DNA of 39,605 nt from Saprospiraceae bacterium (lineage in GTDB: Bacteria; Bacteroidota; Bacteroidia; Chitinophagales; Saprospiraceae): positions 1 through 39,605 of the forward strand of contig JAIPBL010000057.1 of the NCBI GenBank assembly GCA_021739645.1, read 5' to 3'. Positions 1-33,362 of this stretch are shown here, in pieces. The notes under the pieces were generated by a model that saw nothing but the letters and a program-made list of their open reading frames with translations, was not told where the DNA came from and searched no databases. How positions within the stretch are numbered: position 1 is the stretch's first letter; every line of letters begins with the position of its first letter. The position numbers and the translations under genes are program-made.

Positions 1-77
1 TTGGCAGTGGGCAGTCGGGGCAGTGGTCGCAGCCACCGACTGCCCACTGCCAACTGACGAACTGCCAACTAAGAAAA
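1..77. repeat. Stutter repeat, CAGTTGGCAGT type, with an 18-bp inverted repeat
   Basis: Positions 1-18 and 36-53 are perfect inverted complements (18 bp) around a 17-nt loop. The unit ACTGCCAACT recurs at 47-56 and 61-70. The tract lies directly downstream of the OmpA-like gene that ends at 78, so it could act as its terminator stem, although no clear T-run follows. A related GCAGTTGGCAGTT tract lies at 28676-28710. The left edge is cut by the window. Confidence 0.7.
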
Positions 78-1178
78 CTACTCCGTTTGCAGGACGATGA
101 ATTCGACCCGGCGGTTCATCTGGCGGCCATGTGGGGTTTTATTGTCGGCAACGGGCTGGGCGCTGCCACAACCCTTGAAACGGGTGCGAGTGGCTGGGAT
201 GCCGCTTCCAATGAGGTATTCGGCCACGGATTTTGCCCTTTTTTCGGAGAGCAACTGGTTGTGTTCGTCGTCGCCAACGCTGTCGGTGTGGCCACAGACT
301 TCGATGGCGAGTTGCGGGTTTTGCCGCATGATTTTCAATAACTTTTTCAGTTCAACATAGGAACGTGGCATCAGTTCTGAGCGGTCGTGCTCGAAGTAAA
401 TATCCCGCAGCGGCACGGCTTTTCCAGGTTCGAGCCTGATATTGGAGAGGTCGTCGTCGGGTATGGGGATGGGGAGGATGGGTGGTATTTTCTTCACCAG
501 AACATCTTCGATATAATAGTAACCGAAAGGGAGGCTACCGTCGTTGCCTGGTTTGGTGCGCGTGAGGCTGTCTGGGAAAAAATTTCCGATGACAAGGTAC
601 TCGGCCTCGGTGTCTGCGATGAACTTGCCGGAAACTTTAATCCAGCGGTTGGGGCTTTCGAGGATGTCTTCGGCAATTACTTGGGGGTGATAGTTGAGCA
701 GGCCGTCGGTGATTTCCTCGATTTTTTCGTTGGAAAAAAGAAAGCCGAGATTGTCGGTGCGGAGCGACTTGGGCAGGTGGCTGACCCACATTTCGGCGAG
801 GTAGCTTTGGCCGAGCACCAGCGGCTCACTGAGCTGTATCTGGATGTACTCCCGACAGTGGGGCTTGCCCTGTCCGCAGCCGTAAACGGTAATGCCTACC
901 ATTGAAAGGCCGGTGCGGGGCACTTGTTTGCCAAAACCCTTTTCCTCCCAATGGGCAGGCACTCGAACCTTGGGCCCGAACACGTCGGGGCTGGCGTTGG
1001 AGGCTGATGACCAGTATTTCATCACATTCGTGAAATGTTCGCCTTTGTAAAACCAACCAATGGGTGGCGAAGCGTACAGCTCGAAGCTGGGGTTGGGAAT
1101 GATGTTTTCAGGCTCGCCTTGGGCGGTGAGCAAATTGCAACTCAACAGGAGTATCGGCAGGATGTGGCTAAGTTTCAT
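78..1178 (-). CDS. Exported OmpA-family protein with N-terminal jelly-roll-like domain
   Basis: 366 residues from the ATG at 1176-1178, chosen because the signal peptide (MKLSHILPILLLSCNLLTAQ) starts there; the frame is open further upstream but that extension looks non-coding. After the signal peptide, residues ~25-225 begin with a PNPSFE motif and resemble a carbohydrate-binding-like beta-sandwich as seen in CBM4_9-type proteins (weak inference). Residues ~255-365 form an OmpA C-terminal domain: the FEHDRSEL start, the GHTDSVGDDEHN stretch and LLSEKRAKSV carry the Asp and Arg that bind diaminopimelate in this family. It therefore probably sits in the periplasm or outer membrane and tethers to peptidoglycan. 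It follows the DUF4112 gene on the same strand with a 99-nt gap. The ligand of the front domain is unknown. Confidence 0.85.
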   Translation of the reverse strand: MKLSHILPILLLSCNLLTAQGEPENIIPNPSFELYASPPIGWFYKGEHFTNVMKYWSSASNASPDVFGPKVRVPAHWEEKGFGKQVPRTGLSMVGITVYGCGQGKPHCREYIQIQLSEPLVLGQSYLAEMWVSHLPKSLRTDNLGFLFSNEKIEEITDGLLNYHPQVIAEDILESPNRWIKVSGKFIADTEAEYLVIGNFFPDSLTRTKPGNDGSLPFGYYYIEDVLVKKIPPILPIPIPDDDLSNIRLEPGKAVPLRDIYFEHDRSELMPRSYVELKKLLKIMRQNPQLAIEVCGHTDSVGDDEHNQLLSEKRAKSVAEYLIGSGIPATRTRFKGCGSAQPVADNKTPHGRQMNRRVEFIVLQTE

Positions 1179-1277
1179 GTCGGTGCAGTTCGGTGGTTCG
1201 ACCGTTTTCGTTTTTTGGGGTAAATAATCAAACTGCAAACTCAAAAAAAGATGCCCGTAGTTTCTAAGTGCCATTTT

Positions 1278-1760
1278 TTAAAATGCCTGGATTTGGTCGA
1301 AAAGCCAGCCAGTCACTTTAAAAGCAATAAAAATAATGAGGAACGACATCAAAAGTAACATAAAAATCACTGCTAAAATGACGGGAATTGCGCTGCCGCC
1401 GTGCTTTCCCGCCTGATAGTGCTCTTGAAGCAGGCGGTAGTTCCTGCGGTTGGCCTTGAAGCTCAGGTCGAAAAGGTCGCCGAGCACGGGGATGCTGCCT
1501 ACGAGGGCATCGAGCAGGATGTTGCCCAGCATTTTCACCACCACCATCCCGCTGGCGCCATGGCGAACCATTGAAATAACCAACAGCCCAGAAAAAGCGA
1601 AGGTGACAACATCTCCAGCAAAGGGCACGAGGCCCACGAGGAAGTCAAGTCCGAAGCGGATTTTGGTGCCGGGAAAGCGGAAGCGGCTGTCCAATAAATC
1701 GGACATGGTGTCAAGGTATTTGAACTCGACAGGTGCCATTTCAAGCCGTGTATTTTCCAT
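1278..1760 (-). CDS. DUF4112 family membrane protein
   Basis: 160 residues. The central part (residues ~20-100) matches what I recall of DUF4112: LDSRFRFPGTKIRFGLDFLVGLVPFAGD, then a glycine-rich hydrophobic stretch and a second VGSIPVLGDLFD motif, two copies of a 'G-(L/I)-(V/I)-P-x-(A/L)-G-D' hairpin. A long hydrophobic helix closes the C-terminus (residues ~125-155). This suggests an inner-membrane protein with re-entrant or paired helices. The biochemical function of the family is not known to me. The ATG at 1758-1760 follows an AT-rich leader; rpsA diverges upstream, so the roughly 300 nt between them carry both promoters. Confidence 0.8.
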   Translation of the reverse strand: MENTRLEMAPVEFKYLDTMSDLLDSRFRFPGTKIRFGLDFLVGLVPFAGDVVTFAFSGLLVISMVRHGASGMVVVKMLGNILLDALVGSIPVLGDLFDLSFKANRRNYRLLQEHYQAGKHGGSAIPVILAVIFMLLLMSFLIIFIAFKVTGWLFDQIQAF

Positions 1761-1859
1761 TTTATAAAAATTTTACTTCGCAAAAGTGCCCATGCTGTGG
1801 CAAAATGCGGAAAAAAGGTCTCAAGAAATGCAGAAAACCAAATTAAACCTGCGCCGGGC

Positions 1860-1890
1860 TTGGTTTCACCGGTTGTTAGGTTTACTTTTG
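1860..1890 (+). promoter_or_regulatory. Probable rpsA promoter (Bacteroidota type)
   Basis: TACTTTTG at 1883-1890 fits the Bacteroidota -7 consensus TAnnTTTG. CTTG at 1859-1862 ends 20 nt before it and is close to the -33 TTTG. Transcription would start near 1897, giving a leader of about 160 nt before the S1 start codon. This also argues against any S1 start upstream of 1890, although the frame is open there. Confidence 0.55.
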
Positions 1891-2057
1891 CGCCGCTTTT
1901 GGCGGAAGGTATTTTTTCAAAAAAATGTTTTGCGCATAAGCGAGTATTCACCCGGTGGTTTGTATTGAAAATGCTGGGACTTTGGTGCTTCGGCCCCAAT
2001 TTTCCGAAATCAAATGGAAGCCGCCTATTTTTTCACCTTTTAAAAAAACATTTGTCA

Positions 2058-4211
2058 ATGCTCAACGAGAAAAAGACGAATGAAGACATCGATGATAGCG
2101 ATGACGATTTGCTCACCGATGAAACTGAAGTAGAAACAACAACTGACGAAAACGAAGAAGACCTTGAAGATGAAAAAGTTTCCATTGAGGAACTGATTGC
2201 CGGCCAAGGTTCATTTGATGATTTTAACTGGGAGTCAGCCAACAAACATGGCGTAACTTACACAAAAGCCGAACGGGAGCGCCTGACTGAGACCTACGAC
2301 CAGACACTTAGCTCACTCCTCGAAAATGAAATCGTGGCTGCTACCGTCACCTCTATCACTAGCGGCGACGTGGTACTCGACCTCAACTTCAAATCCGACG
2401 GCCTCGTTTCTATTGGTGACTTCAAAGACATCCCCGACCTTAAGGTTGGTGACAAAGTGGATGTATATGTAGAGCGCCAAGAAGACGAAAAAGGTCAGCT
2501 CGTACTTTCCCGCCGCAAGGCCAAGTTGCTGAAAGCTTGGGAGTCACTCAAGGATTCCTTCGAAAATGGCACCGTCATCCGTGGTACGGTTATCAGCAAA
2601 ACCAAAGGCGGTCTCATCGTTGATTGCAGCGGTTTGGAGACGTTCCTTCCTGGTTCACAAATTGACATCAAACCCATCCTCGACTACGACCAGTTCGTGG
2701 GCAAGCAGATGGAGTTCAAAGTGGTCAAAATCAACGAGCAAATTAAAAACGCCGTTGTTTCACACAAGGCACTTATCGAAAGCGACCTCGCCGAGCAGCG
2801 TGACGCCATCATTGGTCGCCTCGAAAAAGGTCAGGTACTCGAAGGTCTTGTCAAGAACATCACCGACTTCGGAGCGTTCCTCGACCTCGGTGGCGTGGAC
2901 GGTCTGTTGTACATCACCGACATCTCTTGGGGCCGGATCAACCACCCAAGCGAAGTGCTGCACCTCAACCAGAAAATCAACGTTGCGGTACTTGATTTCG
3001 ACGAAAACAAAAAGCGTATCTCTTTGGGTCTCAAGCAATTGCAACCGCATCCATGGGAAGTTCTCTCTGCTTCTATCAAAGAGGGTGACACCATTAACGG
3101 AAAGGTTGTGAACGTGGAAGACTACGGCGCATTCCTTGAAGTGATGCCAGGCGTGGAAGGCTTGATTCACGTATCGGAGGTCTCTTGGGGCAACCAGCAA
3201 ATCAACGCCAAGGATTACTTCAAAATGGGTGCTGAACTGGATGCCAAAGTTGTTACCATTGACCGTGAAGAGCGCAAGATGTCTTTGAGCATCAAGCAGC
3301 TCACCAACGACCCATGGGAGGAACTCAGCGAGCGCTTCCCAGTAGGCAGCCGCCACAAAGTGAAGGTGAAAAACCTCACGCAGTACGGCGTGTTTGTCGA
3401 GTTGGAAGACGGCATCGGTGGCATGATTCACATCTCTGACCTTTCATGGACAAAGCGCTATTCGCACCCATCAGAGTTCACCAAGGTAGGTGAGGATATT
3501 GACGCATTGGTACTGGAAGTGGACAAGGACAACCGTAAACTGTCCCTTGGTCACAAACAGACGGAAGAGAATCCATGGGATACATTCGAAAACGTTTTCC
3601 CAGTTGGCTCCTACCACGAGGGCACCGTTGTTCGTCGTGACGACCGTGGCGCCATCGTTCAGTTGCCACATGGTTTGGAGGCATTTGCCCCCATCAAGCA
3701 CCTGAAAAAAGAAGACAACTCTACCGCCGAATTGGAGGAAGTGCTGATTTTCAAGGTGATTGAATTCAACCGTGACGACAAGCGGCTTTTGGTTTCTCAC
3801 TCCCGTTACCTCGACGACATCCGTCGTGAGGCTGACGAGACCGTGAAAAAAGAGAAGGATAAAGAACATGAAGAAGTCCGTCAAACGGTGAAGAAGCAGC
3901 AGTCCACAGTTGTAAGCTCTACGCTTGGCGACTTGGATGTATTCAGCCAATTGAAAGAACAATTGGGCGATGCAACACCTCCACCACCACCACCTGCGGC
4001 AACAAAAGCTAAAGCTACTAGTAAAAAGGCTAAAGCTGAAGTTGTAGAGGCTGCTACCGAAGTCGTTGATGAAGTTGCAGAGGTTGCTACCGAAGAAGTC
4101 GTTGAGACTGTTACTGAAGTTGCAGCAGAGACAGCACCAGTTGCTGAGGAAGCTGTAGTTGAGGCTGTAACTACTGACGAAGCTGCCGCTGACGAAAGCG
4201 AAAAAGCATAA
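2058..4211 (+). CDS. rpsA: 30S ribosomal protein S1
   Basis: 717 residues from the ATG at 2058; the frame is open upstream but that part covers the promoter and does not look like S1. S1 binds mRNA on the small ribosomal subunit and helps initiation, which matters in Bacteroidota because Shine-Dalgarno use is low. An acidic N-terminus (residues ~10-40, mostly D, E and T) is followed by six S1 RNA-binding repeats at roughly 90-155, 170-240, 260-325, 345-415, 430-500 and 515-580. The middle repeats show the typical pattern (FGAFLDLGGVDGLLYITDISW; YGAFLEVMPGVEGLIHVSEVSW). The last ~70 residues are low-complexity (A, E, V, T, K), including a run of Pro and AEVVEAATEVVDEVAE-type repeats, an extension not found in proteobacterial S1. 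It is monocistronic, with its own promoter and terminator. Confidence 0.97.
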   Translation: MLNEKKTNEDIDDSDDDLLTDETEVETTTDENEEDLEDEKVSIEELIAGQGSFDDFNWESANKHGVTYTKAERERLTETYDQTLSSLLENEIVAATVTSITSGDVVLDLNFKSDGLVSIGDFKDIPDLKVGDKVDVYVERQEDEKGQLVLSRRKAKLLKAWESLKDSFENGTVIRGTVISKTKGGLIVDCSGLETFLPGSQIDIKPILDYDQFVGKQMEFKVVKINEQIKNAVVSHKALIESDLAEQRDAIIGRLEKGQVLEGLVKNITDFGAFLDLGGVDGLLYITDISWGRINHPSEVLHLNQKINVAVLDFDENKKRISLGLKQLQPHPWEVLSASIKEGDTINGKVVNVEDYGAFLEVMPGVEGLIHVSEVSWGNQQINAKDYFKMGAELDAKVVTIDREERKMSLSIKQLTNDPWEELSERFPVGSRHKVKVKNLTQYGVFVELEDGIGGMIHISDLSWTKRYSHPSEFTKVGEDIDALVLEVDKDNRKLSLGHKQTEENPWDTFENVFPVGSYHEGTVVRRDDRGAIVQLPHGLEAFAPIKHLKKEDNSTAELEEVLIFKVIEFNRDDKRLLVSHSRYLDDIRREADETVKKEKDKEHEEVRQTVKKQQSTVVSSTLGDLDVFSQLKEQLGDATPPPPPPAATKAKATSKKAKAEVVEAATEVVDEVAEVATEEVVETVTEVAAETAPVAEEAVVEAVTTDEAAADESEKA

Positions 4212-4236
4212 GATTTACAAAGATTATTTGAATGAT

Positions 4237-4275
4237 AATCCCCGGTTCGGCATTCCGAATCGGGGATTTTTTTTG
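4237..4275 (+). terminator. rpsA rho-independent terminator
   Basis: A 14-bp stem (4237-4250 with 4255-4268, one G-U pair) with a CATT loop is followed by eight Ts. It lies 26 nt after the S1 stop codon. Confidence 0.9.
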
Positions 4276-4320
4276 TTAAAAAAGAAGGGAGAAACAGAAC
4301 TCACGCTCCATCTCTCCCTT
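4275..4320 (-). terminator. htpG terminator
   Basis: AAGGGAGA (4285-4292) pairs with TCTCCCTT (4313-4320). On the minus strand the stem is followed by CTTTTTT. It lies 25 nt beyond the htpG stop and faces the rpsA terminator; the loop is long (20 nt). Confidence 0.6.
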
Positions 4321-4344
4321 TATTTCTTGCCTAGCATAAATGCC

Positions 4345-18365: not shown

Positions 18366-18402
18366 GCTCACCCTCTCAAACTTCTCACACGCTCACGCTC
18401 TT
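18366..18402. repeat. Stutter repeat, CTCACGCTC type
   Basis: Degenerate tandem units (CTCACC, CTCTCAAA, TTCTCACACG, CTCACGCTC) fill the gap between the PorP/SprF-like gene and its OmpA partner. The frame of the latter is open through part of this tract, which is why a start further upstream is not credible. Confidence 0.5.
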
Positions 18403-19473
18403 TTAAAGGTGCGGGCAAAGAATAACGGGTTTCACGTCTGGTTTCTTGTAAATTTTGCCCGTGTAATAGGCTGCAATTTCAAAACCACCCTGATGGCTGT
18501 TCGCTTCGCTCAACGCCGATAGCGTAAAGTCGTAACCAAGTTGCACTTTGAAATCCTTGTAATCCAACCCGAGCAGTAGCTGCGCAGAGTCGCCGACCCG
18601 GTAACCGAGGCCGCCGTTTAGTTTGATGTTCTCAGCAGGCTTTAGCCAGTAGCCTGCCCACGCATGCACTTGAAACTGCTGGGCCGGACTGATATTGGAA
18701 AAATAAACCTCCGGGGTAAGTGTCCATTTTGCGTTCAGTGCCGTGTTGAGTTGGGCATGGGCGATAAGGCGCATGTTCAAGTCCACGTTTGAACCTCCAA
18801 AATTGTAGTCGGTGCCTGGTGTAGTGATGTGCCTTGCCGAAACGCCAAAATTGTAGTCCGTGGTTTTGCTAGCCTTGGATTTGAAAAGCAAGCCAAGGTT
18901 AATATCAGTAAAGTCTTTTTTCTTGTCTGAGTTGTTTCCAGGACCGGGTGTGCTACCGCCGCTTTGAAATATCAAATCTGTCGTTGCAGCACCGGGCATG
19001 TTTGCTAATTGTTGCGACAAAAGGTCTTCTGGCAGAAGTCCATTGAGGCTTTTTATCTTCCTACCCACCTTGCCCCACTGTACGCCGAGGGTCACCACAT
19101 TCTTGCTTTTTTTATCGAGTGCCAAATGAAAGGCACCGCTTAACTGGCCAGCCGATGTCGTCAGTTTGCCATCGCCCGCTGCGTCTTGAAAAACGAGTAA
19201 TCCAACGCCAATCCAGTGTCGCTTGCCAATCATCAAAATTGGGGCATCCACAAAAATAGTTGGGGTGGAATAAGCGGACTTACCAATGGCAGTACGTGCT
19301 TGGTCACGATAAAGTCCACCGATGCGGAACGTCCCCTCGTAAGCACCCGAGAACGCCGGGTTCATGTGCAGGGGGTTCATGTAGAAAAGCGTGTTGTGCA
19401 GATCCTGGGACTTGAGATGGCCAAAGCCGCCAAGCGTTACAACAAGGAGTAAAATTGTTTTTGTCAATCTCAT
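18403..19473 (-). CDS. PorP/SprF family type IX secretion system membrane protein
   Basis: 356 residues from the ATG at 19471-19473, where the signal peptide MRLTKTILLLVVTLGGFGHLKSQD begins. LFYMNPLHMNPAFSGAYEGTFRIGGLYRDQ is the N-terminal signature of the PorP/SprF family (N-P-A-x-x-G... RxQW), followed by alternating strands typical of an outer-membrane beta-barrel, VGLLVFQDAAGDGKLTTSAGQLSGAFHLALD and GLGYRVGDSAQLLLGLDYKDFKVQLGYDFTLSAL. SprF proteins work with gliding adhesins and type IX secretion. It is followed by the OmpA/PD40 gene on the same strand, the usual pairing. No secreted giant adhesin or T9SS core gene lies in the window. Confidence 0.9.
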   Translation of the reverse strand: MRLTKTILLLVVTLGGFGHLKSQDLHNTLFYMNPLHMNPAFSGAYEGTFRIGGLYRDQARTAIGKSAYSTPTIFVDAPILMIGKRHWIGVGLLVFQDAAGDGKLTTSAGQLSGAFHLALDKKSKNVVTLGVQWGKVGRKIKSLNGLLPEDLLSQQLANMPGAATTDLIFQSGGSTPGPGNNSDKKKDFTDINLGLLFKSKASKTTDYNFGVSARHITTPGTDYNFGGSNVDLNMRLIAHAQLNTALNAKWTLTPEVYFSNISPAQQFQVHAWAGYWLKPAENIKLNGGLGYRVGDSAQLLLGLDYKDFKVQLGYDFTLSALSEANSHQGGFEIAAYYTGKIYKKPDVKPVILCPHL

Positions 19474-19651: not shown

Positions 19652-20626
19652 TCAAAGGGCTGCTTGCCGAACTATCTTTTCAACATCCTGCTCGTTCATG
19701 CACTTGAAATGCCCTTTCGGGCAAGTTTGGTAACCAATTTTTGAGCAGGGGCGGCATGATAATCCCTCCACTTCAAAGCTTGTGTTTCGGTCGGGGTTGG
19801 CAGTGCCGTAGTACGGTGCCATGCCCAAAGCAGGGACGGTATTGCCCCAAATAGACAATACTTTTTGCTGAAAAGCTGCCGCAATGTGCATCATCCCCGT
19901 GTCGTGGGTGATGACCAAAACGGCTCGTCGCAGCACCTCCGCCGACTCCTGCAACGACAATTTCCCACACAGGTTCGAAACATGGCTTCCGCTTTGCTCC
20001 GCAATGATTTCCCCCTCAGCCGCCTCTTCCTTGCCGCCCAGCAGCAAGATGGGCTGGTGCAACTGCTGGCAGATTTCAACAATTTTGGCCGTCGGCAAAC
20101 GCTTGGTTTGGAACTTGGCACCGATAGCGAAGGCGAAGTATGAGGTATGAGGGATGGGGTATGAGGGATGCAGGTGTTGGGGCACAAAAAAATCCAAGCC
20201 CTGTCCATCGTTTTTTATTCCCAGTGGTTCTGTGGCGGCAAGGTATCTGTCAACGATGTGGAGCTTCGGCAAACGGTTGATTTTCAGTGCGGTCAGCAGC
20301 CATTTTTCAACATTCAATTTTTTGAATGTCAGCCATTTAGGTTGAAATAAAAGGCCAATTCGAACTCGCAGCGTGCGCAGGTTTTTGTGCAAATCAACGA
20401 CATAGTCGTATCCCTCACGGCGCAGGTCGGGCAGCACTTCCGACACGTTTTTTTTGATGGTGAAAATGCGGTCAATATGCGAGTTGGCCTCCAGTAGGGG
20501 CAGGAATTGCTGTTTGGTGAGGTAATGGATTTCAGCGCCCAACTGTTGTTTCAGGCACCTAACCACGGGCGTCGTCAGTACGATATCGCCAATGGAAGAA
20601 AAACGGATGATGAGGATTTTTTTCAA
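19652..20626 (-). CDS. Glycosyltransferase family 9 (heptosyltransferase-like)
   Basis: 324 residues if translation starts at TTG 20624-20626, giving the family-typical KKILIIRFSSIGDIVLTTPVVRCLK; a GTG at 20665 would add 13 atypical residues. The GT-B fold of heptosyltransferases is shown by this start, DYVVDLHKNLRT (~85-96), GAKFQTKRLP (the acceptor/donor hinge), LLGGKEEAAEG and THDTGMMHIAAAFQQKVLSIWGNT (~255-278, the D-T-G-x-x-H-I-A-A donor motif). A Cys-rich stretch (LSCRPCSKIGYQTCPKGHFKCM) near the C-terminus is also usual. It likely adds heptose or a related sugar to lipopolysaccharide core at the inner membrane. Residues ~150-163 are encoded by a repeat (20139-20172). Confidence 0.9.
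   Translation of the reverse strand: MKKILIIRFSSIGDIVLTTPVVRCLKQQLGAEIHYLTKQQFLPLLEANSHIDRIFTIKKNVSEVLPDLRREGYDYVVDLHKNLRTLRVRIGLLFQPKWLTFKKLNVEKWLLTALKINRLPKLHIVDRYLAATEPLGIKNDGQGLDFFVPQHLHPSYPIPHTSYFAFAIGAKFQTKRLPTAKIVEICQQLHQPILLLGGKEEAAEGEIIAEQSGSHVSNLCGKLSLQESAEVLRRAVLVITHDTGMMHIAAAFQQKVLSIWGNTVPALGMAPYYGTANPDRNTSFEVEGLSCRPCSKIGYQTCPKGHFKCMNEQDVEKIVRQAAL
20139..20172. repeat. Stutter repeat inside the glycosyltransferase gene
   Basis: Plus-strand units TATGAGG, TATGAGGGATGG, GGTATGAGGGATG. On the coding strand they read in-frame as HPSYPIPHTSY, between the two Rossmann halves. The intergenic tract at 28765-28795 has the same words (CATACCTCATCCCTCA, CTCATCCCTAC). This places an otherwise intergenic repeat type inside a conserved gene at a linker that should tolerate insertion. 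Confidence 0.65.
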
Positions 20627-20710: not shown

Positions 20711-20743
20711 TGCACTTTTTACTTTTTACTTTTTCCTTCAAAA
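20711..20743. repeat. Stutter repeat, ACTTTTT type
   Basis: CACTTTTTACTTTTTACTTT and following TTCC form three 7-nt units ACTTTTT immediately after the stop of the GH25 gene (20744). It could double as a T-rich 3' end signal on the plus strand, but the gene is on the minus strand. Confidence 0.6.
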
Positions 20744-21529
20744 TCAAGGATTAGCTGCAACAGGTTCGCTCGGAGCTGCCAATGGTAAAGCCGCAGGTAT
20801 GACGAGAGGCTGCACAGGCTCGGGCATCCAGTCAAGGAGTGGTGCAGGGCGGCAGATGGTGAGGCTTTCCAAATCGCCGAGGCTACCGTTGAAAACGTTG
20901 AAGTCCACGTCGCCAGCGATACCGTGAAGGCGTCCCCGGTTGCCGTATTGCCAAAAGCTCCAGGCATTGCCGTCAACAATTTCAGGTGACCAGAGGCTGG
21001 TGTAGCGGGCTACCCAGACGGGGTAACCGCTCATTTGATTAGCGAGGTACTGGTTGTAAAATTTTTGGTTGGAATAGATAATGGGTTTCACCTTATAGGC
21101 ATCCTCCACCAGCGCAAGCCAGTCTTTTACACCTTGGGCCACGTGTTCAGCTGGGTAGCCGTCTGCCACTTCTACATCTAAAACAGGAGGTAGGTCGCCA
21201 TGCTGGAGGTCAACGGTGGAAAGGAAATTACGAGCCTGCAACGCTGCTGGGACGCCGGGACGAAAAAAATGGTAGGCACCCCGAAGGATTCCTGCCGCCT
21301 GCATGGCATCCCAGTTTTTGCAAAAAAATGTGTCCTGCATGGACTGCCCTTCACTGGCTTTCACGAAGGCAAAATGCACGTCTTGCGCGGCGACTTGTTG
21401 CCAATCAATCTTCTTTTGGTAGTGCGAAACGTCGATCCCATGAACCCCAAAGCCCTCCTTCCGAACTGTTTGTTCGTGGCAGGCAGTCAAAAAAGCCAAG
21501 GCTCCGAGTAGGATAAATTTACTTTTCAT
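20744..21529 (-). CDS. Glycoside hydrolase family 25 lysozyme, lipoprotein
   Basis: 261 residues. The N-terminus MKSKFILLGALAFLTAC is a lipoprotein signal peptide with lipobox LTAC (Cys 17). The GH25 catalytic domain follows: GVHGIDVSHYQKKIDWQQV holds the first catalytic-site Asp, FVKASEG and GAYHFFRP the next strands, PPVLDVEV the D-x-E pair that carries the nucleophile and acid/base, and YSNQKFY, VWVARY, WSFWQYG and VDFNVFNGS the remaining barrel elements. It cleaves the beta-1,4 bond between N-acetylmuramic acid and N-acetylglucosamine. A Pro/Ala-rich tail of ~35 residues ends the protein. As a lipoprotein it would act at the periplasmic or outer face of the envelope for wall remodelling or attack. 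It appears monocistronic. Confidence 0.93.
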   Translation of the reverse strand: MKSKFILLGALAFLTACHEQTVRKEGFGVHGIDVSHYQKKIDWQQVAAQDVHFAFVKASEGQSMQDTFFCKNWDAMQAAGILRGAYHFFRPGVPAALQARNFLSTVDLQHGDLPPVLDVEVADGYPAEHVAQGVKDWLALVEDAYKVKPIIYSNQKFYNQYLANQMSGYPVWVARYTSLWSPEIVDGNAWSFWQYGNRGRLHGIAGDVDFNVFNGSLGDLESLTICRPAPLLDWMPEPVQPLVIPAALPLAAPSEPVAANP

Positions 21530-21894: not shown

Positions 21895-23622
21895 ATGAGT
21901 AACATCAATGGAAAATGGCAACAAGACAATACCTACGATGCCATTGTCATTGGCAGCGGCATCAGCGGGGGCATTGCCGCCAAAGAGCTGTCGGAGAAAG
22001 GCTTGAAGACCTTGGTACTGGAGCGGGGCCGAATGGTAAAGCATATCGAAGACTATCCGACCATGAACATGGCCCCCTGGGACTTGCCATTTCGGGACAA
22101 GGTGCCGCAGGACGAAATTGACAAACACTACCAAAAACAAAGCCGCACTGGCTACACCATCCGCCAAGGCTGGAAGCACTGGTTCGTCAAGGACGACGAG
22201 CACCCCTACACCGAGGTCAAACGCTTCGACTGGATGCGGGGCTACCACGTCGGCGGGCGCTCCCTCACCTGGGGGCGGCAGAGCTATCGCCACAGCGACT
22301 TGGACTTTGAGGCCAACGCCAAAGAGGGCATCGGCGTGGACTGGCCCATCCGATACGCCGACATCGCACCTTGGTACAGCTACGTGGAGGAGTGGATTGG
22401 CGTCAGCGGCTCCAACGAGGGGCTGCACCAACTACCCGACGGCAAGTTCCAACCAGCCATGGAAATGAACTGCGTGGAAACGGACATGAAGGGCAAAGTG
22501 GAAGCTAAATTCGGCGACCGAAAAATCACAATTGGCCGTACAGCGCACATCACGGCAGCTACCGAGGCGCAAAAAAAACTGGGGCGTGTCAACTGCCAGT
22601 TCCGCAACCTCTGCATGAGGGGCTGCCCGTTCGGGGGCTATTACAGCAGTAACGCAGGCGGATTGAAGGCTGCCGAACTGTCCGGCAACATGACCCTGCG
22701 CCCCAACTCCATCGTCCACTCCATTATTTATGATGAAAAAACCGGCAAGGCCAAGGGCGTGAAAATCCTCGATGCCGAAACGAAACAGGAGATGGAGTTT
22801 TATGCTAAAATCGTCTTCGTAAATGCCTCGGCGTTCAACTCTACCTGGATTTTAATGAACTCGGTCAGCGAGCGCTTCCCCAACGGCATGGGCAACGACA
22901 GCGACCAGTTGGGTCGCAACGTAATGGACCACCACTTTCAAGTAGGCGCCTCCGGCAAGTCGGACGACTTTGGCGACAAATACTACTCAGGCCGCCGTGC
23001 CAACGGCATTTATATCCCTCGCTTCCGCAACGTTGACGCAAAAACAAAGCGCAACGATTTCCTCCGCGGCTACGGCTACCAAGGTGGCGCCAGCCGAGAA
23101 AACTGGCAAAGCCTGATCGCAGAAATGGGTTTCGGCAAGACCTTCAAGCAAGAAATTCACGACCCAGGCCAATGGCGGGTCGGCATCAACGGCTTCGGAG
23201 AAATGCTGCCGCACCCCGACAACCGCATCACCCTGAACAAGGAGGTGAAGGACATGTACGGCATGCCCACCCTCACGATGGATGTGCAAATCCGGGAAAA
23301 CGAACTCGCCATGCGCAAGGACATGGCTGCCAGCGCCGTCGAGATGCTGGAAGCCTCGGGTTTAAAAAACGTGGAAGCCTACGACCGCAACTACGCACCC
23401 GGCCTCGGCATCCACGAGATGGGCACCGCCCGCATGGGCAAGGATCCAAAAACCTCTGTACTGAACAAGTGGAACCAAGTGCACGCCGTACCCAATGTAT
23501 TTATGACCGATGGCGCTGCAATGACTTCGGCTGCCTGCGTAAACCCATCGTTGACCTACATGGCACTGACGGCTAGGGCTTGCGATTATGCCGTGAAGGA
23601 ATTGAAAAAGGGAAATATCTGA
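21895..23622 (+). CDS. GMC family oxidoreductase
   Basis: 575 residues from the ATG at 21895. The Rossmann FAD motif DAIVIGSGISGGIAAKELSEKGLKTLVLERG lies at residues ~13-43. Family signatures follow: VGGRSLTWGRQSYR (the flavin-contact loop), a Cys-rich segment CQFRNLCMRGCPFGGYY (~235-251), and at the C-terminus PGLGIHEMGTARMGKDP with the catalytic-base His and NPSLTYMALTARACDYAV. Members oxidise alcohols, sugars or related compounds and pass electrons to a quinone or cytochrome. There is no signal peptide, yet the next gene encodes a Tat-type small subunit, so it probably folds with FAD in the cytosol and is exported with that partner, as in gluconate 2-dehydrogenase type complexes. No cytochrome c subunit is encoded nearby. 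The substrate is unknown. Confidence 0.93.
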   Translation: MSNINGKWQQDNTYDAIVIGSGISGGIAAKELSEKGLKTLVLERGRMVKHIEDYPTMNMAPWDLPFRDKVPQDEIDKHYQKQSRTGYTIRQGWKHWFVKDDEHPYTEVKRFDWMRGYHVGGRSLTWGRQSYRHSDLDFEANAKEGIGVDWPIRYADIAPWYSYVEEWIGVSGSNEGLHQLPDGKFQPAMEMNCVETDMKGKVEAKFGDRKITIGRTAHITAATEAQKKLGRVNCQFRNLCMRGCPFGGYYSSNAGGLKAAELSGNMTLRPNSIVHSIIYDEKTGKAKGVKILDAETKQEMEFYAKIVFVNASAFNSTWILMNSVSERFPNGMGNDSDQLGRNVMDHHFQVGASGKSDDFGDKYYSGRRANGIYIPRFRNVDAKTKRNDFLRGYGYQGGASRENWQSLIAEMGFGKTFKQEIHDPGQWRVGINGFGEMLPHPDNRITLNKEVKDMYGMPTLTMDVQIRENELAMRKDMAASAVEMLEASGLKNVEAYDRNYAPGLGIHEMGTARMGKDPKTSVLNKWNQVHAVPNVFMTDGAAMTSAACVNPSLTYMALTARACDYAVKELKKGNI

Positions 23623-23657
23623 TTGCTTAATTGTTGTGATTGTTGGATTGTTGTAAA
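23621..23657. repeat. Stutter repeat, GATTGTTG type
   Basis: Degenerate units GATTGCTTA, ATTGTTG, TGATTGTTG, GATTGTTG occupy the junction between the GMC gene and its partner, beginning at the last base pair of the GMC stop codon. Confidence 0.6.
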
Positions 23658-25342: not shown

Positions 25343-25430
25343 TTGTTGATAAAGGTTGATAAAGTTGATGAAGGCCTGAAGTCACGTTGGGTATCAACCC
25401 TTATCAACCTCACCAACTTTATCAACTTTA
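25343..25430. repeat. Stutter repeat, TTGATAAAG type, forming an inverted repeat
   Basis: GTTGATAAAG-like units at 25343-25374 and complementary CTTTATCAAC-like units at 25393-25430 form a long imperfect hairpin. The right part encodes the last residues of the ArsR-type regulator (KVDKVGEVDKG) and its stop. Confidence 0.7.
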
Positions 25431-25741
25431 TTTTTTTGAATTTCCGCCAGATAGCGCTCCAGCGAGTCGAGTTTTTCGTTCCAAAATTGTCGGTACTGCT
25501 CCACCCAATCCGATATTTCCCGCAGTTTTTCGGGTTGCGCTTCGCAAATGCGCTCTCGGCCCTGCTGCTCGATGACGACCAGGCCGCATTCCGTCAGGAT
25601 TTTCAAATGCTTCGAAATGGCCGCACGGCTCGTCGGGAAGCAATCGGCCACGGCGTTAATGTTCAGTGGGTTTTGCGCCAGCAGCCCAATGATTTCACGC
25701 CGGGTCGGGTCGGCGATGGCTTGAAAAACGTCTCTTCTCAT
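25394..25741 (-). CDS. ArsR-type HTH transcriptional regulator
   Basis: 115 residues. A winged helix-turn-helix is clear: MRRDVFQAIADPTRREIIGLLAQ, then LNINAVADCFPTSRAAISKHLKILTECGLVVIEQQGRERI as recognition helix and wing. No metal-binding Cys pair (CxC or DxH sets) is seen, which fits the subgroup that pairs with AHSA1/SRPBCC genes rather than metal sensors. It probably represses its own operon. The natural end of the family is near LERYLAEIQKK; the final ~9 residues (KVDKVGEVDKG) come from an intergenic repeat type that has grown into the gene's 3' end. It starts 20 nt after the RibD-like gene's stop region on the minus strand. Confidence 0.92.
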   Translation of the reverse strand: MRRDVFQAIADPTRREIIGLLAQNPLNINAVADCFPTSRAAISKHLKILTECGLVVIEQQGRERICEAQPEKLREISDWVEQYRQFWNEKLDSLERYLAEIQKNKVDKVGEVDKG

Positions 25742-26406: not shown

Positions 26407-26501
26407 TTTTCCAGAATATTTTTTTACGCTCAAATATGGTAGGTACGTATGCTGCTTGTGCTACTTTTCGCCACCTTCGCAATTCACCAGAATAATAAGC
26501 A

Positions 26502-26870: not shown

Positions 26871-26878
26871 TTTTCAAG

Positions 26879-27340
26879 ATGCTGCATTTAAAACGCACCG
26901 ATTCCAACGACCCAGATTTTGCCCCACTTGTGCGCCTTCTCGATGCCGATTTGGCAAAGCGAGACGGAGACGAACACGCTTTTTACGCCCAGTTCAACAA
27001 GGTGGCCAGCATCCGCCACGTCGTGGTGATTTATGAAAATAAGCGGCCTGTGGGCTGTGGCGCTTTCAAGCCGTTTGACGAAAATTCGGTGGAAGTCAAG
27101 CGGATGTACGTGCTGCCGGAGTTGCGGGGTCAAGGTTTTGCTTCGCAAATTTTGGAAGAATTGGAGCGGTGGGCAGCGGAATCCGATTTCAGCCGCTGCG
27201 TGTTGGAGACGGGCAAAAAACAGCCGGAAGCCATTTCGCTCTATTTAAAAAGCGGGTATGCGGTCATCCCGAATTTCGGGCAGTACGCTGAAGTGGAAAA
27301 CAGCGTTTGTTTTGAAAAGCACTTGGCCAAAGCGCGTTAA
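26879..27340 (+). CDS. GNAT family N-acetyltransferase
   Basis: 153 residues from the ATG at 26879; the frame is open upstream inside DUF1304 but that is a shadow. The GNAT core is clear: HVVVIYENKRPVGCGAFKPFDENSVEVKRMYVLPELRGQGFASQILEELERWA, where V-x-R-M-Y-V-x-P-x-x-R-G-x-G-x-x is motif A (the acetyl-CoA pyrophosphate loop), and ETGKKQPEAISLYLKSGY is motif B. It transfers an acetyl group from acetyl-CoA to an amine; the substrate cannot be read. Second gene after DUF1304. A GTTTTGGC/GCCAAAAC stem (27341-27368) directly behind the stop may be a weak terminator. Confidence 0.92.
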   Translation: MLHLKRTDSNDPDFAPLVRLLDADLAKRDGDEHAFYAQFNKVASIRHVVVIYENKRPVGCGAFKPFDENSVEVKRMYVLPELRGQGFASQILEELERWAAESDFSRCVLETGKKQPEAISLYLKSGYAVIPNFGQYAEVENSVCFEKHLAKAR

Positions 27341-27410
27341 GTTTTGGCAAATCTTTAGCCGCCAAAACGTTGGATGAAAAGTCCTGTTTTTTTATCGCCC
27401 ATTATCTGCC

Positions 27411-28673: not shown

Positions 28674-28791
28674 GCAGTTGGTCCCGAGTACTCGGGAGCA
28701 GTTGGCAGTTAAGATATTGATTTTCAGTTGATTGCAAAAATAAAGCACCAAAACCACACACTAATCATACCTCATCCCTCAGTCCTCATCC
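28674..28791. repeat. Mixed stutter repeats after the histidine kinase
   Basis: GCAGTTGG and GCAGTTGGCAGTT (28676-28710) flank the 14-bp palindrome CCCGAGTACTCGGG (28683-28696). Then CATACCTCATCCCTCA and CTCATCCCTAC (28767-28794) repeat the words seen inside the family 9 glycosyltransferase gene. The first type also opens the window (1-77). Two repeat types thus lie side by side. Confidence 0.65.
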
Positions 28792-28995
28792 CTACTTCAC
28801 CTCTGGCATCTTGCAAGCCTCGTCCGCTGTCTTACCGCAGACTGAGCAAGACCCGAAATTATCAGTCAGCATTGGGTTGTTGGTTGAACAAGACCCTCTG
28901 AACTCCCGCTTTTTGATGATATAGCTGACGTTCATCAAAATGAAGAAGATGCCGACGACGGCAATGATTGGGAGCAGTATTTGAAGAAATTGCAT
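28792..28995 (-). CDS. Small membrane protein with four Cys, NqrM-like
   Basis: 67 residues from the ATG at 28993-28995; the frame is open upstream through a hairpin and is not used. One membrane helix (residues ~3-25, LQILLPIIAVVGIFFILMNVSYIIKK) is followed by a short soluble tail with the pattern GSC...CSVCG...AC, four Cys in all. NqrM, which delivers iron for maturation of the Na-pumping NADH:quinone reductase, has the same plan (helix, KGSCGGL, then a C-x-C...C cluster). The match is by pattern only, and no nqr genes are in the window, so another metal-binding role is possible. Confidence 0.55.
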   Translation of the reverse strand: MQFLQILLPIIAVVGIFFILMNVSYIIKKREFRGSCSTNNPMLTDNFGSCSVCGKTADEACKMPEVK

Positions 28996-29036
28996 GGCTG
29001 TAGTTTTTGAAAGACAAGAAAGCATTAAAACAGCAC

Positions 29037-29075
29037 AGCAGGTTGATTGGTTGGCACAGTGCCAATCAATCAACC
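29037..29075 (-). terminator. Possible infB terminator
   Basis: A 16-bp stem with one mismatch (29041-29056 with 29060-29075, CAG loop) overlaps the infB stop codon at 29070-29072. On the minus strand it is followed only by a CTGTTTTAATG, a short T-run, so it is weak by itself. Confidence 0.5.
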
Positions 29076-31943
29076 GCCATATTTCTGCTTCACTTCCGTG
29101 ATTTCGTAGCCTTCGACGATGTCGCCTTCTTTCATATCGTTGTAGTTGTCAATGGTCAGACCGCATTCCATGCCAGACTTGACTTCTTTTACGTCATCTT
29201 TCACACGCTTGAGCGACCCCAACCTTCCATTGGCACCTTCCTTGGTTGGGAAAATAACGATACCGTCCCGCACCAAGCGGATATGCGTGTTCCGGGTGAG
29301 CTTTCCATCCAGCACGTAGCAACCTGCAACGGTGCCGACTTTGCTGATTTTGTAAACCTCCCGTATCTCGATGTTTGCTACGATTTTCTCTTCCTTGGTA
29401 GGTTCGAGCATGCCTTCGATGGCCAGTTTTATTTCTTCAATGGCCTCGTAAATGATGGAGTACATCTTGATTTCGACACCCTCCCGTTCGGCCAGCTTGC
29501 GGGCTGCCACCGATGGCCGCACCTGGAAGCCGATGATGATGGCATCAGAAGCGGAGGCGAGCAGTACGTCCGACTCAACGATTTGACCAACGGCCTTGTG
29601 GATGACGTTGACCTGAACGGTCTCCAGTGCCAACTTGATAAGCGCATCGGAAAGTGCCTCAACAGAGCCGTCCACGTCACCTTTGACGATGAGGTTAAGC
29701 TCTTTGAAGGTGCCGAGCGCCAAGCGGCGTCCGATTTCGTCGAGGCTGATACGCTTGGTAGCACGAGTGGCTTGCTCCCGGTTTATTTGCGCCCGCTTGG
29801 AGGCCAATTGACGTGACTCCGATTCGTCGTCCATGATTTTGAAGCGCTCACCTGCTGTGGGTGCGCCACTTAGGCCAAGCACGAGTACCGGCGCAGATGG
29901 CCCAGCTTCGGTAATGCGCTGGCCGCGTTCGTTGAACATGGCCTTCACCTTGCCTGCATACTCGCCAGCAACCATTGCATCGCCAATTTTGAGCGTTCCA
30001 GTTTGTACCAGCATTTTGGATACGTAGCCCTTGCCTTTGTCAAGCGATGCTTCGAGTACGGTTCCAATGGCGTTTCTGTCTGGATTTGCTTTCAACTCAG
30101 CAAGGTCAGCTACGAGCAGTACTTTATCAAGCAATTGATCTACCCCTTCACCAGTTTTGGCGGAAATATCCATGGACTGGTAATTACCACCCCACTCCTC
30201 AATGAGCAGGTTCATGGAAGCCAGCTCTTGTTTGATTCGGCCTGGGTCAGCGCCCTCTTTATCAATTTTATTGATGGCAAAAACCATCGGTACGGTCGCT
30301 GCTTGGGCGTGGCTGATTGCCTCCTTGGTTTGGGGCATGATGTTGTCATCCGCCGCAATTACGATGATGGCAATGTCCGTCACCTTGGTACCCCTTGCAC
30401 GCATGGCGGTGAACGCCTCGTGACCAGGTGTGTCCAAGAAGGTGATAGAACGGTCGTTGACGGTCACCTCATAAGCACCGATGTGCTGGGTGATACCGCC
30501 CGCTTCGCCAGATACCACCTTGGCCTCCCGGATATAGTCGAGCAAGGAGGTTTTACCGTGGTCAACGTGGCCCATCACGGTGATGATGGGCGAACGAGGC
30601 TTCAAGTCTTCTGGTGCATCTTCCTCTTCTTCTTCGAAATCTGTTTGGTCTTCGACGCTGATGAACTGCACTTCGTGGCCAAACTCACTGGCCACCAATT
30701 CTATCAGTTCCGCATCGAGGCGCTGGTTGATGGACACGAATACGCCGAGGCTCATACAAGTGGTGATGACCTCGGTTGCTGAAACATCCATCATGTTGGC
30801 CAATTCCTGAACGGTCACAAATTCTGTCACTTCCAGTTTGTCGGATTGGCCTTCCATATCGCGAAGCTCCTGACGCTCACGAACACGTTCCCGTGTTTCA
30901 CGGCGCATTTTTTGGCGCTTCTTCTTGCCAGCCCCGGAGAGCGAGGCCATCGTTTTGCGGATCTGCTCTTCGGCTTCTTTTCCTGAAACTTCACGGGCAG
31001 GTGCTCCCCTGCGCCGCCTGTCGCCAGTGCCTTGCGATGGGCTGGCCGCACCCGGTTGTGGTGTTTGTGGGAGCACTTTTTTGCGCTTGCGCTTACGCCG
31101 TGCGCTATCGTCGGAGGTATCAGACGAAGCAACTGGTCTCGATTTGTCACCACGAACTGATCTATCGCCAGCTCGTTCGGAACCTGCTTTCTTCTTGACT
31201 GGCTTAGCAGCGGGTTCTTTGCGTTTTGCTATTTCTATTTTACCCAAGATTTTCAACCCCCTTAGTTCAGGGGTTCCCATCCTGACAAGTTCATCTTCAT
31301 CCACTCCATCAGTTACAACTTCAGTTGGCACTTTGGCCACTGTTGGCCCAACGGGCCCAGCTGGCACGGTTGGTGGTTCTTTGTCATCTGCAACTGCGGC
31401 AGGTGTCTCGACAACTTCTGGCTCGCTTGGTTTTTCATCGGCAGGTTTCTCGGCCACTTTCTTGGGGCGAACTGGCATGCCTTTTTTGTCCAATTCTATT
31501 TTCCCCTTAATCTTAAGTCCATCTACTTTAGGACGTGAACGCTCCTCGACAACTACTGGCGTTTCTTCCACCACAGGGGTAGGCTCTACTACAGGAGCAG
31601 GTTCTGCAACTTCTTTTGCCGTGACCACGGGAAGGGGTTCCTCTTTTTTGATTAGCGGTGGCGGCGGTGGCGGCGGCGGCGGAGCGGGTTCTGTTCGCCT
31701 GATAAGGGGAGGAAGGGGTTCCTTCTTTACCAAGGCAGGCCGAACGCCGATAGTCATGGCATCGGCTTTCACCTTTTCTGCCATGTCTTTTTGGTACTCT
31801 TTGAGCAATAGGGATTCCATCTCCTCTGTGACTTTGGAGGTAGGCTTGTTATCAATATGAAAACCCTTGCTGCCCAGAAACTCTACAATAGTTGCTGTAC
31901 CAACGTTTAATTCCTGCGCTACTTTTACTAAGCGTTTATCCAT
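29070..31943 (-). CDS. infB: Translation initiation factor IF-2
   Basis: 957 residues. The N-terminal IF2_N helix motif [27 protein letters not shown] is followed by a long low-complexity region with a nine-Pro run ([15 protein letters not shown]) and Lys/Arg/Glu blocks up to ~residue 360. A second IF2_N-like segment ([29 protein letters not shown]) precedes the GTPase: G1 GHVDHGKTS (~457), G3 [10 protein letters not shown]4 NKID. Domains II-IV with the fMet-tRNA-binding C2 end the protein (~residues 860-957). It places initiator tRNA on the 30S subunit. It follows nusA on the same strand with a 96-nt gap filled by a repeat, as part of rimP-nusA-infB. Confidence 0.97.
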
Positions 31944-31954
31944 TCAGAAAAAAA

Positions 31955-32036
31955 TAAATGATGAATGACAAGGTGATAAAATTGAAAGACAAAGATAGTT
32001 TCCTTGTCGCTCATCATTCATCATCCCGGTCATTCC
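31955..32036. repeat. Stutter repeat, GATGAATGA type, between nusA and infB
   Basis: ATGATGAATGACAAGG (31957-31972) and the complementary CCTTGTCGCTCATCATTCATCAT (ending at 32033) form an imperfect inverted repeat. The words TGAATGAT also occur upstream of nusA (33284-33320). The tract fills the whole spacer between two co-transcribed housekeeping genes. Confidence 0.65.
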
Positions 32037-32039
32037 AGG

Positions 32040-33278
32040 CTATTCATCGAATTCGGCGGCAAGGATTCCAAGCACTTCATCGACAGTTTCCTCTTCGAGT
32101 TCCGTGCGCCTTACCAGCTCGTCTCTGCTCAATTCCAATACGCTGCGGGCCGTGTCGCAGCCGATACGCTTGAGTTCCTCAATGACCCAAGGCTCTATTT
32201 CGTCCTTGAATTCATCAAGGTCAACGTCGTCAATTTCTTGGCCGTCCGTGTTGCGGTAAACGTCAATTTCAAAACCTGTCAGCTTGCTCGCCAACTTGAT
32301 ATTGGTTCCACCTTTGCCGATGGCCAGCGATACTTGGTCGGGGTCGAGGTAAACGCTCGCACGTTTTTGCTCCGAATCCAACTCGATACTGGTCACCTTG
32401 GCTGGCGTCAACGAACGCTGGATGAACAGGCTTTCGTTGTTGGTGAAATTGATGATGTCAATGTTTTCGTTGCGAAGCTCCCGAACGATGCCGTGGATAC
32501 GGGAACCTTTCATCCCCACACAAGCACCTACCGGGTCCACCCTATCGTCGTAAGATTCGACTGCTACCTTGGCACGTTCGCCAGGTAGGCGCACGATGCG
32601 CTTCACAGCAATGATACCGTCCTCGATTTCAGGCACTTCCTGCTCTAGCAGCTTCTCCAAAAAGGCATTGTCCGTGCGGCTAACAATCACCACTGGGGTG
32701 TTGTTTTTCATTTCCACCTGCTTGATGATGCAGCGCACCATATCGCCTTTGCGGAAATAGTCGCCCTTGATGGTTTCCTGCTTTGGCATCAACAACTCGT
32801 GGCCAGTGGCATCATCAATAATGAGGAATTCTTTCTTGATGATTTGGCTGACCTCGCCCACTATCATTTCGCCTACCCGCTCGACGTACTTGCGGTAAAT
32901 GTCGTCTTTCTCCAATTCCATGATTCTGGAGATAAGCGTTTGGCGGGCAGCTTGGATGGAGCGGCGGCCAAAGTCTTCGAGGAAGAGCTGTTCGTAGCAC
33001 TCCTCGCCAATCTCGTAGCTGTCGTCAATGGACAGCGCCTCCGAGATGGACACTTGGCTGCGGTCGTCCGTCACCTCGCCATCTGGCACAATTTGGCGAA
33101 CCCGCCAAAGCTCAAGGTCGCCCTGCTGTGCGTTCACGATGACGTTGAAGTTGTCGTCGGAACCAAATTTCTTCTTGATCAATGTGCGGAACACATCTTC
33201 CAGCACCCGCACCATCGTGGGACGGTCAATGTTTTTGCTGGATTTGAAATCGGAAAAGGTATCTACTAAGTTTATCAT
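32040..33278 (-). CDS. nusA: Transcription elongation/termination factor NusA
   Basis: 412 residues from the ATG at 33276-33278 (MINLVDTFSDFKSSKNID); the frame is open upstream only through a repeat tract. The N-terminal RNA-polymerase-binding domain (~1-125) is followed by an S1 domain (~135-200; ERVGEMIVGEVSQI...KGDMVRCIIKQV) and two KH domains (~205-345) with ALVSRT-like (VIVSRTDNAFLEKLLEQEVPEI), GERAKVAVESYDDRVDPVGACVGMKGSRIHGIVREL, and AIGKGGTNIKLASKL. The acidic C-terminal repeats of E. coli NusA are absent, as in most other bacteria. It modulates pausing, termination and antitermination. Middle gene of rimP-nusA-infB; in E. coli NusA represses this operon, and a leader hairpin here could serve a similar purpose. 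Confidence 0.96.
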   Translation of the reverse strand: MINLVDTFSDFKSSKNIDRPTMVRVLEDVFRTLIKKKFGSDDNFNVIVNAQQGDLELWRVRQIVPDGEVTDDRSQVSISEALSIDDSYEIGEECYEQLFLEDFGRRSIQAARQTLISRIMELEKDDIYRKYVERVGEMIVGEVSQIIKKEFLIIDDATGHELLMPKQETIKGDYFRKGDMVRCIIKQVEMKNNTPVVIVSRTDNAFLEKLLEQEVPEIEDGIIAVKRIVRLPGERAKVAVESYDDRVDPVGACVGMKGSRIHGIVRELRNENIDIINFTNNESLFIQRSLTPAKVTSIELDSEQKRASVYLDPDQVSLAIGKGGTNIKLASKLTGFEIDVYRNTDGQEIDDVDLDEFKDEIEPWVIEELKRIGCDTARSVLELSRDELVRRTELEEETVDEVLGILAAEFDE

Positions 33279-33283
33279 CCTTG

Positions 33284-33362
33284 TAATGATGAATGATAAA
33301 TGGAGAATGAAGAATGGTAAAATGCGTTGTTCACAGTTCACCAACCGTCATTGACCATTGGA
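33284..33362. repeat. Stutter repeat, GAATGATAAATG type, between rimP and nusA
   Basis: AATGATGAATGATAAATGG, AGAATGAAGAATGG and TAAAATG are degenerate copies of one unit; a second type (ACCAACCGTCATTGACCATTGG) follows at 33339-33361. It fills the 88-nt spacer between rimP and nusA. Confidence 0.6.

Follow-up and report, generated by a model that had tools for sequence, protein, structure and literature searches.

Inverted heptamer and octamer arrays in Saprospiraceae gene gaps, with words that differ between sister species

Cyanobacterial genomes are known for short tandemly repeated (STRR) heptamers. In the accessible passages of a study of Xanthomonas, which mentions three heptanucleotides for Calothrix, GGGAATC units form imperfect heptamer arrays that are mostly intergenic, usually have four units, are commoner between open reading frames (ORFs) of the same direction than between convergent or divergent ones, and also occur as inverted 'convergent' pairs, 70 in Xcc and 75 in Xac (Rehm et al. 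2015, PMC4692102). The TAACTGA direct repeats of Beggiatoaceae, Cyanobacteria and some Bacteroidetes are heptamer gap arrays, most of which end just upstream of a start codon, operons of essential genes included; the passages available from that work list 169 direct sets and one indirect repeat for the main genome, with related heptamers rarely repeated, other heptamers also present in some Bacteroidetes gaps, and shorter gaps in relatives (MacGregor 2015, PMC4679880). A third kind, the repetitive extragenic palindromic sequences and bacterial interspersed mosaic elements (REP/BIME) associated with RAYT transposases, comprises short palindromic gap repeats that are present in many copies and chiefly separate same-direction or convergent ORFs (PMC3733652). 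Here we describe inverted elements built from tandem words of mostly 7 or 8 nucleotides (nt) in a Saprospiraceae bacterium, starting from one stretch of its DNA (the window: the entire contig C57, 39,605 bp, of a genome of 6.16 Mb, that is 6,157,607 bases, in 147 contigs).

As far as the accessible text of these papers goes, the elements share imperfect heptamers concentrated in gaps and inverted pairs with the Xanthomonas arrays, heptamer gap arrays next to starts and in essential operons with the TAACTGA repeats, and several heptamer words in one genome with the cyanobacterial repeats. Whereas for each organism the Xanthomonas study deals with a single G-run word family, many 7- and 8-nt words coexist here, most of them without GGG (absent from 19 of the 25 commonest), and one gap bears different words in different species; the elements lack the Xanthomonas trait of one G-run word able to form G-quadruplexes. 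The TAACTGA repeats, in the same passages, are almost only direct, and no word replacement is described for them. REP/BIME are likewise short, palindromic and numerous in gaps, but the elements here have arms of tandem words and mostly unconserved loops. In the open literature, to the extent of its accessible passages, we found no multi-word, word-swapping heptamer form of fixed polarity, the closest being the Xanthomonas and Beggiatoaceae arrays. The kind, heptamer arrays, is known; the multi-word, word-replacing variant is new as far as our search of open papers shows, and no known repeat family among those tested accounts for the elements.

Inverted arrays in intergenic DNA

We sampled the window and 71 fetched stretches of the same genome, together 1,346,016 of the 6,157,607 bases, with 230,537 intergenic bases; gene coordinates and starts throughout are those of our own gene caller. 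The intergenic DNA held 165 imperfect tandem tracts with a period of 5-12, whereas 20 dinucleotide shuffles yielded 3.2 on average and never more than 8; tracts scoring at least 14 numbered 92, against 0.2. Many of the contigs had been picked from the hit list of a genome search with ACTGCCNACTGCC (180 matches, against 5 for the pattern read backwards); eight stretches on contigs absent from that list gave 14 tracts, against a mean of 0.25 and a maximum of 1 in shuffles. An earlier run over 1.15 Mb found 131 gap tracts against 3.0, together with 45 tracts in coding DNA (every second called gene, 502 kb). The period was 7 in 102 of the 165 tracts, 8 in 48 (150 for the two lengths), 9 in 7 and another value in 8. 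The original prediction, drawn from the letters of the window, had reported repeat tracts at gene boundaries and suggested a genome-wide count against shuffled intergenic sequence. With that count far above chance and most window tracts backed by Tandem Repeats Finder, the observation is real, and was understated there.

Many tracts are halves of one inverted element, in which tandem words with almost no C form the 5′ arm, followed by a short spacer and a 3′ arm of reverse-complement words. Among 117 neighbouring pairs in own and sister stretches, 99 ran from a G-rich to a C-rich tract (57 own, 42 sister) and none ran from C to G in either set; 4 were GG, 9 CC and 5 unskewed. Arm complementarity scored at least 8 in 90 of the 99 G-then-C pairs, the period was equal in both arms in 95 and the consensus word in 55, and the median spacer was 15 nt. 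The 5′ arms contain 4.5% C and 32.7% G and the 3′ arms 4.8% G and 33.1% C, with a balanced spacer; arms are AT-rich on average (GC 0.37-0.38). Searches with the word AGTTGGC, which differed between the two orientations in spacer range and genome set, found the G-then-C order at 6 own places and in 8 of 14 genus genomes (spacer 5-35), and no reverse polarity across 61 family genomes (spacer 20-50). Folded as RNA, nine of ten elements reached -22.3 to -49.1 kcal/mol (z -3.8 to -10.6) and the tenth -15.6 kcal/mol (z -3.1); none of 200 shuffles folded as well for eight of the ten, and one shuffle each did for the other two. Heptamer arrays, with different words in each, were also seen on contigs of a viral collection (L227, L228, L232, L241, L243 and L246 carry several); neighbouring pairs in 24 loci of that collection, 'viral' being its own label, were 8 G-then-C, 6 GG, 1 CC and 0 C-then-G.

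The polarity, the C-poor G strand and the unit length resemble head-to-head fused telomere repeats. This likeness, like the presence of the same word on both arms, would suit a telomerase-like reverse transcriptase that used short RNA templates to add C-free repeats to both 3′ ends of a break before these were joined head to head, and matches to RVT_1 occur in 7 of 14 genus genomes, including the genome studied here, which has one. However, the sister genomes G003 (100% complete) and G008 (98% complete), both array-rich and with words of their own, have 0 matches to RVT_1, the sole family searched. A resident reverse transcriptase as the required source was rejected on these two genomes, and we give such an enzyme only the slimmest chance of being the cause.

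Position relative to genes was as follows. Among gaps of at most 600 bp, tracts occupied 82 of the 537 between same-strand genes, 12 of the 146 convergent ones and 14 of the 131 divergent ones; in 22 of the 82 same-strand gaps they reached to within 20 nt of both genes. For the 105 same-strand tracts, the downstream start was no more than 18 nt away in 53 cases and the upstream stop in 40, where 28.7 would be expected for either. The original prediction had placed the tracts within a few nucleotides of stop codons; tracts are indeed enriched at stops, but more strongly at starts. In these gaps a C-rich arm often directly precedes a start codon: among tracts near a start only, 49 of 50 were C-rich on the mRNA and 1 was unskewed, and among those near a stop only, 31 of 37 were G-rich, 4 C-rich and 2 unskewed. 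Some tracts lie inside called ORFs, such as window 20135-20170.

This orientation on the mRNA is one argument for selected RNA structures, that is, intercistronic hairpins that couple translation or set the stability of mRNA segments, with sequence free to vary provided that a hairpin and, before the start codon, a C/A-rich leader are retained. The stable folds agree with it, though any long palindrome folds well, as do tracts at the atpF-atpH and atpH-atpA gaps in 5 of 5 species and, by a strict detector, at atpA-atpG in 4 of 5. Yet the orientation partly follows from the fixed polarity of the pairs, the tracts extend to convergent and divergent gaps and to some called ORFs, and a hairpin function needs neither tandem 7/8-mers nor words common to unlinked genes. 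We consider RNA structure an unlikely explanation; selection on RNA hairpins may act alongside rewriting or mobile insertion. Nothing in the analysis supports the earlier idea that the tracts are 3′-end or RNA-processing signals.

Words are heavily shared between loci, and the original prediction's separate sequence for each tract was not supported as a general rule. Across 169 own loci (coding ones included) there were 538 identical-word locus pairs, against a mean of 25 and a maximum of 43 in 500 letter shuffles; the commonest words were AGTTGGC (22 loci), ATTGGTG (11), AAATCGT (10), ATTGCGG (8) and AGTTTTG (8). In some cases two loci of separate contigs have an exact block in common, 32-33 nt long and containing one and the same odd unit (for example, L017:8807 and L055:14915, or L015:16691 and L038:9213). 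Slippage during replication, acting in every gap separately and without exchange between loci, fits the tandem structure, the unit variants and the closely related words that different species carry at L028:6829, but not the word sharing or these blocks, and alone it yields neither inverted arms nor fixed polarity. As a sole cause it is refuted by the word sharing, unless sequence bias alone makes the same words, and we hold it to be very improbable. A single consensus for all words was also tried: rotation gave a loose common pattern, but rotation fitting itself favours such a result and we did not rely on it. At L222:10397-10513, in genome G036 of another genus, one tract shifts almost unbroken from AGTTGGC to ATGCTGG words.

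Of 60 relatives, 22 contained the word ACTGCCAACTGCC, 12 of these belonging to the same genus; its count was highest in G036 (313), and G028, also of another genus, had 307 of the backward word. Around nusA, a single gene neighbourhood surveyed at 80 named loci of the family with own-genus members included, 206,534 intergenic bases held 8 period-7 and 9 period-8 tracts, against 1 and 4 in one shuffle. In 40 kb fetched from G036, 3,977 intergenic bases held 6 tracts (0 in one shuffle), and in 36 kb from G028, 7,408 intergenic bases held 3 (1 in one shuffle). The survey around nusA suggests that high tract density is restricted to the genus studied here and some others. Two contigs start inside arrays, the window at position 1 and C49 with a period-7 array of 139 bases (L040:1-139); assembly may therefore break at long arrays, and arrays may be under-counted.

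Shared gaps and differing words among sister species

We compared 96 gaps for which one or more of the fetched sister stretches had an ortholog. The nearest relatives, as the records name them, are metagenome genomes labelled Saprospiraceae or Bacteroidota; sister stretches were located through anchor genes, most of them adjoining elements (one anchor had no ortholog), and C35 and C7 were chosen as tract-rich. The original prediction had suggested such a comparison of junctions, and from it comes the central finding: sister species tend to have elements in corresponding gaps, but the word there is usually a different one. Counting gaps with a tract in neither genome, in the sister only, in the own genome only and in both, G003 gave 59/3/12/10 (Fisher test, p=4e-5), with a tract in 10 of 22 own-element gaps against 3 of 62 others, and G008 gave 18/1/6/6 (p=0.007). 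Where both genomes had a tract, the words differed in 10 of 10 gaps for G003, 6 of 6 for G008, 2 of 2 for G007 and 3 of 5 for G006.

The two arms of an element change together. In 24 elements from 9 sites the complementarity of the two arms was 18.3; it fell to 9.8 when the arms compared came from different species at the same site (p=3e-8). Sites also leave a trace in their words: same-site words were closer than permuted site pairs (2.04 versus 2.63, p=0.0004), the period was kept at 19 of 24 same-site comparisons (12.5 expected, p=0.0055), and 5′ arms were more alike at the same than at different sites (9.6 versus 6.4, p=3.5e-4), the p-values of these tests, that for arm complementarity included, being optimistic because sites were reused across several species. 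Likeness of same-site words and a kept period are expected if some sites drift while others are rewritten.

The atp operon gives the clearest picture gap by gap; family models confirmed atpE, F, H, A and G, and the words are those reported by the detector, written from the alphabetically first letter. The atpF-atpH gap carries AGTTATG in the own genome, AATGGTG in G003, ATTGGTG in G006, AATATTG in G007 and AGGGATG in G008. The atpH-atpA gap carries related 8-mers in all five species, and the atpA-atpG gap AGTTTTG/AGTTTCG in the own genome, AATGATG in G003, ATTCGTG in G006, none in G007 and AGGTATT in G008. At L018:16071, judged by eye, the outer flanks are kept in the own genome, G003 and G008, and the DNA between them differs. 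The gap at L018:17890 measures 139 bp in the own genome, 70 bp with another word in G003, 26 bp in G007 and 16 bp in G008.

Persistence varies between elements. By eye, the infB-nusA element of the window was recognisable in G013, G003, G008, G005 and G012 and more diverged in G007, and was not recognisable in G001, G002, G004, G009, G010 and G006. The window tracts 28676-28710 and 28765-28794 had no counterpart visible by eye in the corresponding gaps of G013, G003, G008, G005 and G012. Old and young elements therefore coexist.

Rewriting in place and insertion as explanations

We propose, tentatively and as a leading guess read from sequence, that the elements undergo recurrent breakage or template-switch rewriting at palindromes, with copying from other arrays. 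At the palindrome, as a hairpin or cruciform, DNA would repeatedly break or forks stall. Part of the arms would be lost, leaving both exposed 3′ ends with the same G-strand words; because they carry the same words, both ends could copy one array. Each would anneal to and copy another genomic array, or slip on its own units, and copying would rebuild both arms with one new word and unchanged polarity. The rebuilt DNA would be confined to the gap by selection acting on the start and stop codons beside it, and a C/A-rich, G-poor leader before starts, through mild benefit or mere tolerance, may help to retain elements. The wider picture of genome-wide word rewriting, which we hold possible with rather less confidence, is that elements keep fixed addresses for much of the life of the genus, while repair or replication overwrites both arms with a word from a shared, changing vocabulary, the C-free strand always running toward the centre, as in two head-to-head telomere-like tracts. 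The original prediction's single process is partly supported: the elements form a single class with common periods, C-poor and G-poor arms and polarity, and a replication- or repair-linked origin is plausible.

Several observations weigh against rewriting in place. The breakage, slippage and copying steps all come from comparing sequences, and the model explains neither the 7/8-nt unit length nor the origin of the first element. Taken singly, G006 (4/2/3/5, p=0.30) and G007 (6/0/7/2, p=0.34) were not significant, the word was the same at 2 of 5 common gaps in G006 and at the sole one in G011, and the species compared at a site do not count as independent cases. Shared 22-mers exceeded those of unit-shuffled arrays modestly (122 pairs against a mean of 84.8 and a maximum of 115 in 100 shuffles). 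Same-site spacers were no more alike than those of different sites (3.75 versus 3.44, p=0.54; 24 species pairs, 9 sites), which therefore leaves room for wholesale re-insertion. Same-word elements have slightly more similar spacers (5.13 versus 4.37, p=3e-4), and this, together with the conserved AGTTGGC loop described below, fits copying of whole elements better than rewriting of arms. A conserved same-site spacer had been considered as proof of in-place change; it looks good by eye at L028:6190 (own and G003) and L015:16686 (own and G008), and was dropped on the result of the spacer test.

The main rival is a model in which small mobile palindromes of a REP-like or MITE-like (miniature inverted-repeat) kind, mobilised in trans, reinsert in the same few tolerated gaps, so that a new word is a different insertion. 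In the AGTTGGC family, elements of eight genus genomes have a loop of about 20 nt in common (like NGCCGTGGTAGCAGNCCC, with variants), and an identical 49-bp element stands at window 3-51 and at G000:C97:23999-24047. Empty or short gaps such as L018:17890, the tracts that nearly fill the space between two genes, the behaviour of the spacers and Y1 transposase matches in 12 of 14 genus genomes all accord with such mobility. It is harder to reconcile with same-site word similarity and period kept above chance, and the tags typical of REP are not enriched: GTAG stood at 0 of 198 hairpin feet (4.5 expected) and CGTC at 3 of 198 (5.6 expected). Of the seven Y1 matches in the own genome, three were inspected by eye (L059:18307-19029, L211:17839-18300 and L221:5087-5659) and were not directly flanked by 7/8-mer arrays, although an 8-mer array pair lies about 1.1 kb from the gene on L221, beyond another gene. 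We therefore rejected membership of the elements in the REP/BIME (RAYT) family, and rate mobile palindromes as somewhat unlikely. The same Y1/RAYT-like genes are flanked by short palindromes of their own, separate REP-like families in this genome. Taken together, some of the set behaves as though whole elements had been copied, and some as though arms had been rewritten where they stand.

Tracts of the window and their significance

The tracts of the window are listed in Table 1. Tracts inside operons, as originally noted, are borne out by rimP-nusA-infB, whose three gene identities family models confirmed, and by the atp operon. Placement at a stop codon was wrong for two: 20135-20170 lies within an ORF and 33285-33316 before the nusA start. 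The heptosyltransferase ORF stays open across the former, which is therefore probably translated; the latter is recognisable in several relatives. The view that the tracts are neither CRISPR nor REP/BIME also stands: their units run head to tail without unique regular spacers (no CRISPR finder was run), in addition to the tag and Y1 results above. Rfam gave no match at its gathering score in the window, in L015 or among the elements of L028, the only loci searched. Downstream of the atp genes, L028:11302-11593 contains two pieces of group II introns (Rfam RF02001, RF01998).

Table 1. Repeat tracts and inverted elements of the window, with Tandem Repeats Finder (TRF) calls at a score of at least 30
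Feature	Position	Strand	TRF call	Gene context	RNA fold
Inverted element, AGTTGGC word	1..77	.	3-26, 39-70	Abuts stop of OmpA-like ORF 78-1178(-); contig starts inside element	-46.8 kcal/mol, z -6.5
Weak single C-rich tract, CTCACGCTC words (from sequence and gene call)	18366..18402	.	Unreported	Immediately past stop of ORF 18403-19473(-)	
Period-7 tract, AGGTATG/AGGGATG words	20135..20170	+	20138-20175	Within heptosyltransferase ORF 19652-20626(-)	
Period-7 tract, ACTTTTT	20714..20738	.	20714-20738	5 nt beyond stop of ORF 20744-21529(-)	
Period-8 tract, GATTGTTG	23620..23654	+	23620-23654	Overlaps stop of ORF 21895-23622(+)	
Inverted 9/10-mer element, TTGATAAAG ... CTTTATCAA	25343..25431	.	25345-25374, 25392-25431	Right arm (25394-25431) inside C-terminal end of ArsR-type ORF 25394-25741(-)	-38.8 kcal/mol, z -6.6
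Weak CAGTTGG copies flanking CCCGAGTACTCGGG palindrome	28676..28710	.	Unreported	2 nt past histidine-kinase stop	-15.6 kcal/mol, z -3.1; 1 of 200 shuffles equally good
Period-7 tract, CTCATCC/CTCATAC	28765..28794	.	28765-28793	Touches stop of small ORF 28792-29073(-)	
Inverted element, AATGATG (inverted, not tandem)	31955..32036	.	Unreported	infB-nusA gap	-31.6 kcal/mol, z -5.6
Period-7 tract, AATGATG	33285..33316	+	33285-33316	nusA-rimP gap, 6 nt upstream of called nusA ATG start	

Heptamer repeats are over-represented in several bacterial groups, with no settled reason given in the accessible parts of the two array studies (PMC4692102, PMC4679880). In the genus examined here there are many words, units of two lengths and arms in pairs, and its sister genomes keep the addresses of elements while the words change. 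Models of insertion, slippage, template switching and templated addition therefore predict different outcomes, which comparison of strains can test. Within essential operons (atp, nusA-infB) the elements also put stable hairpins of rapidly changing sequence between one cistron and the next, and any influence on expression there would be measurable.

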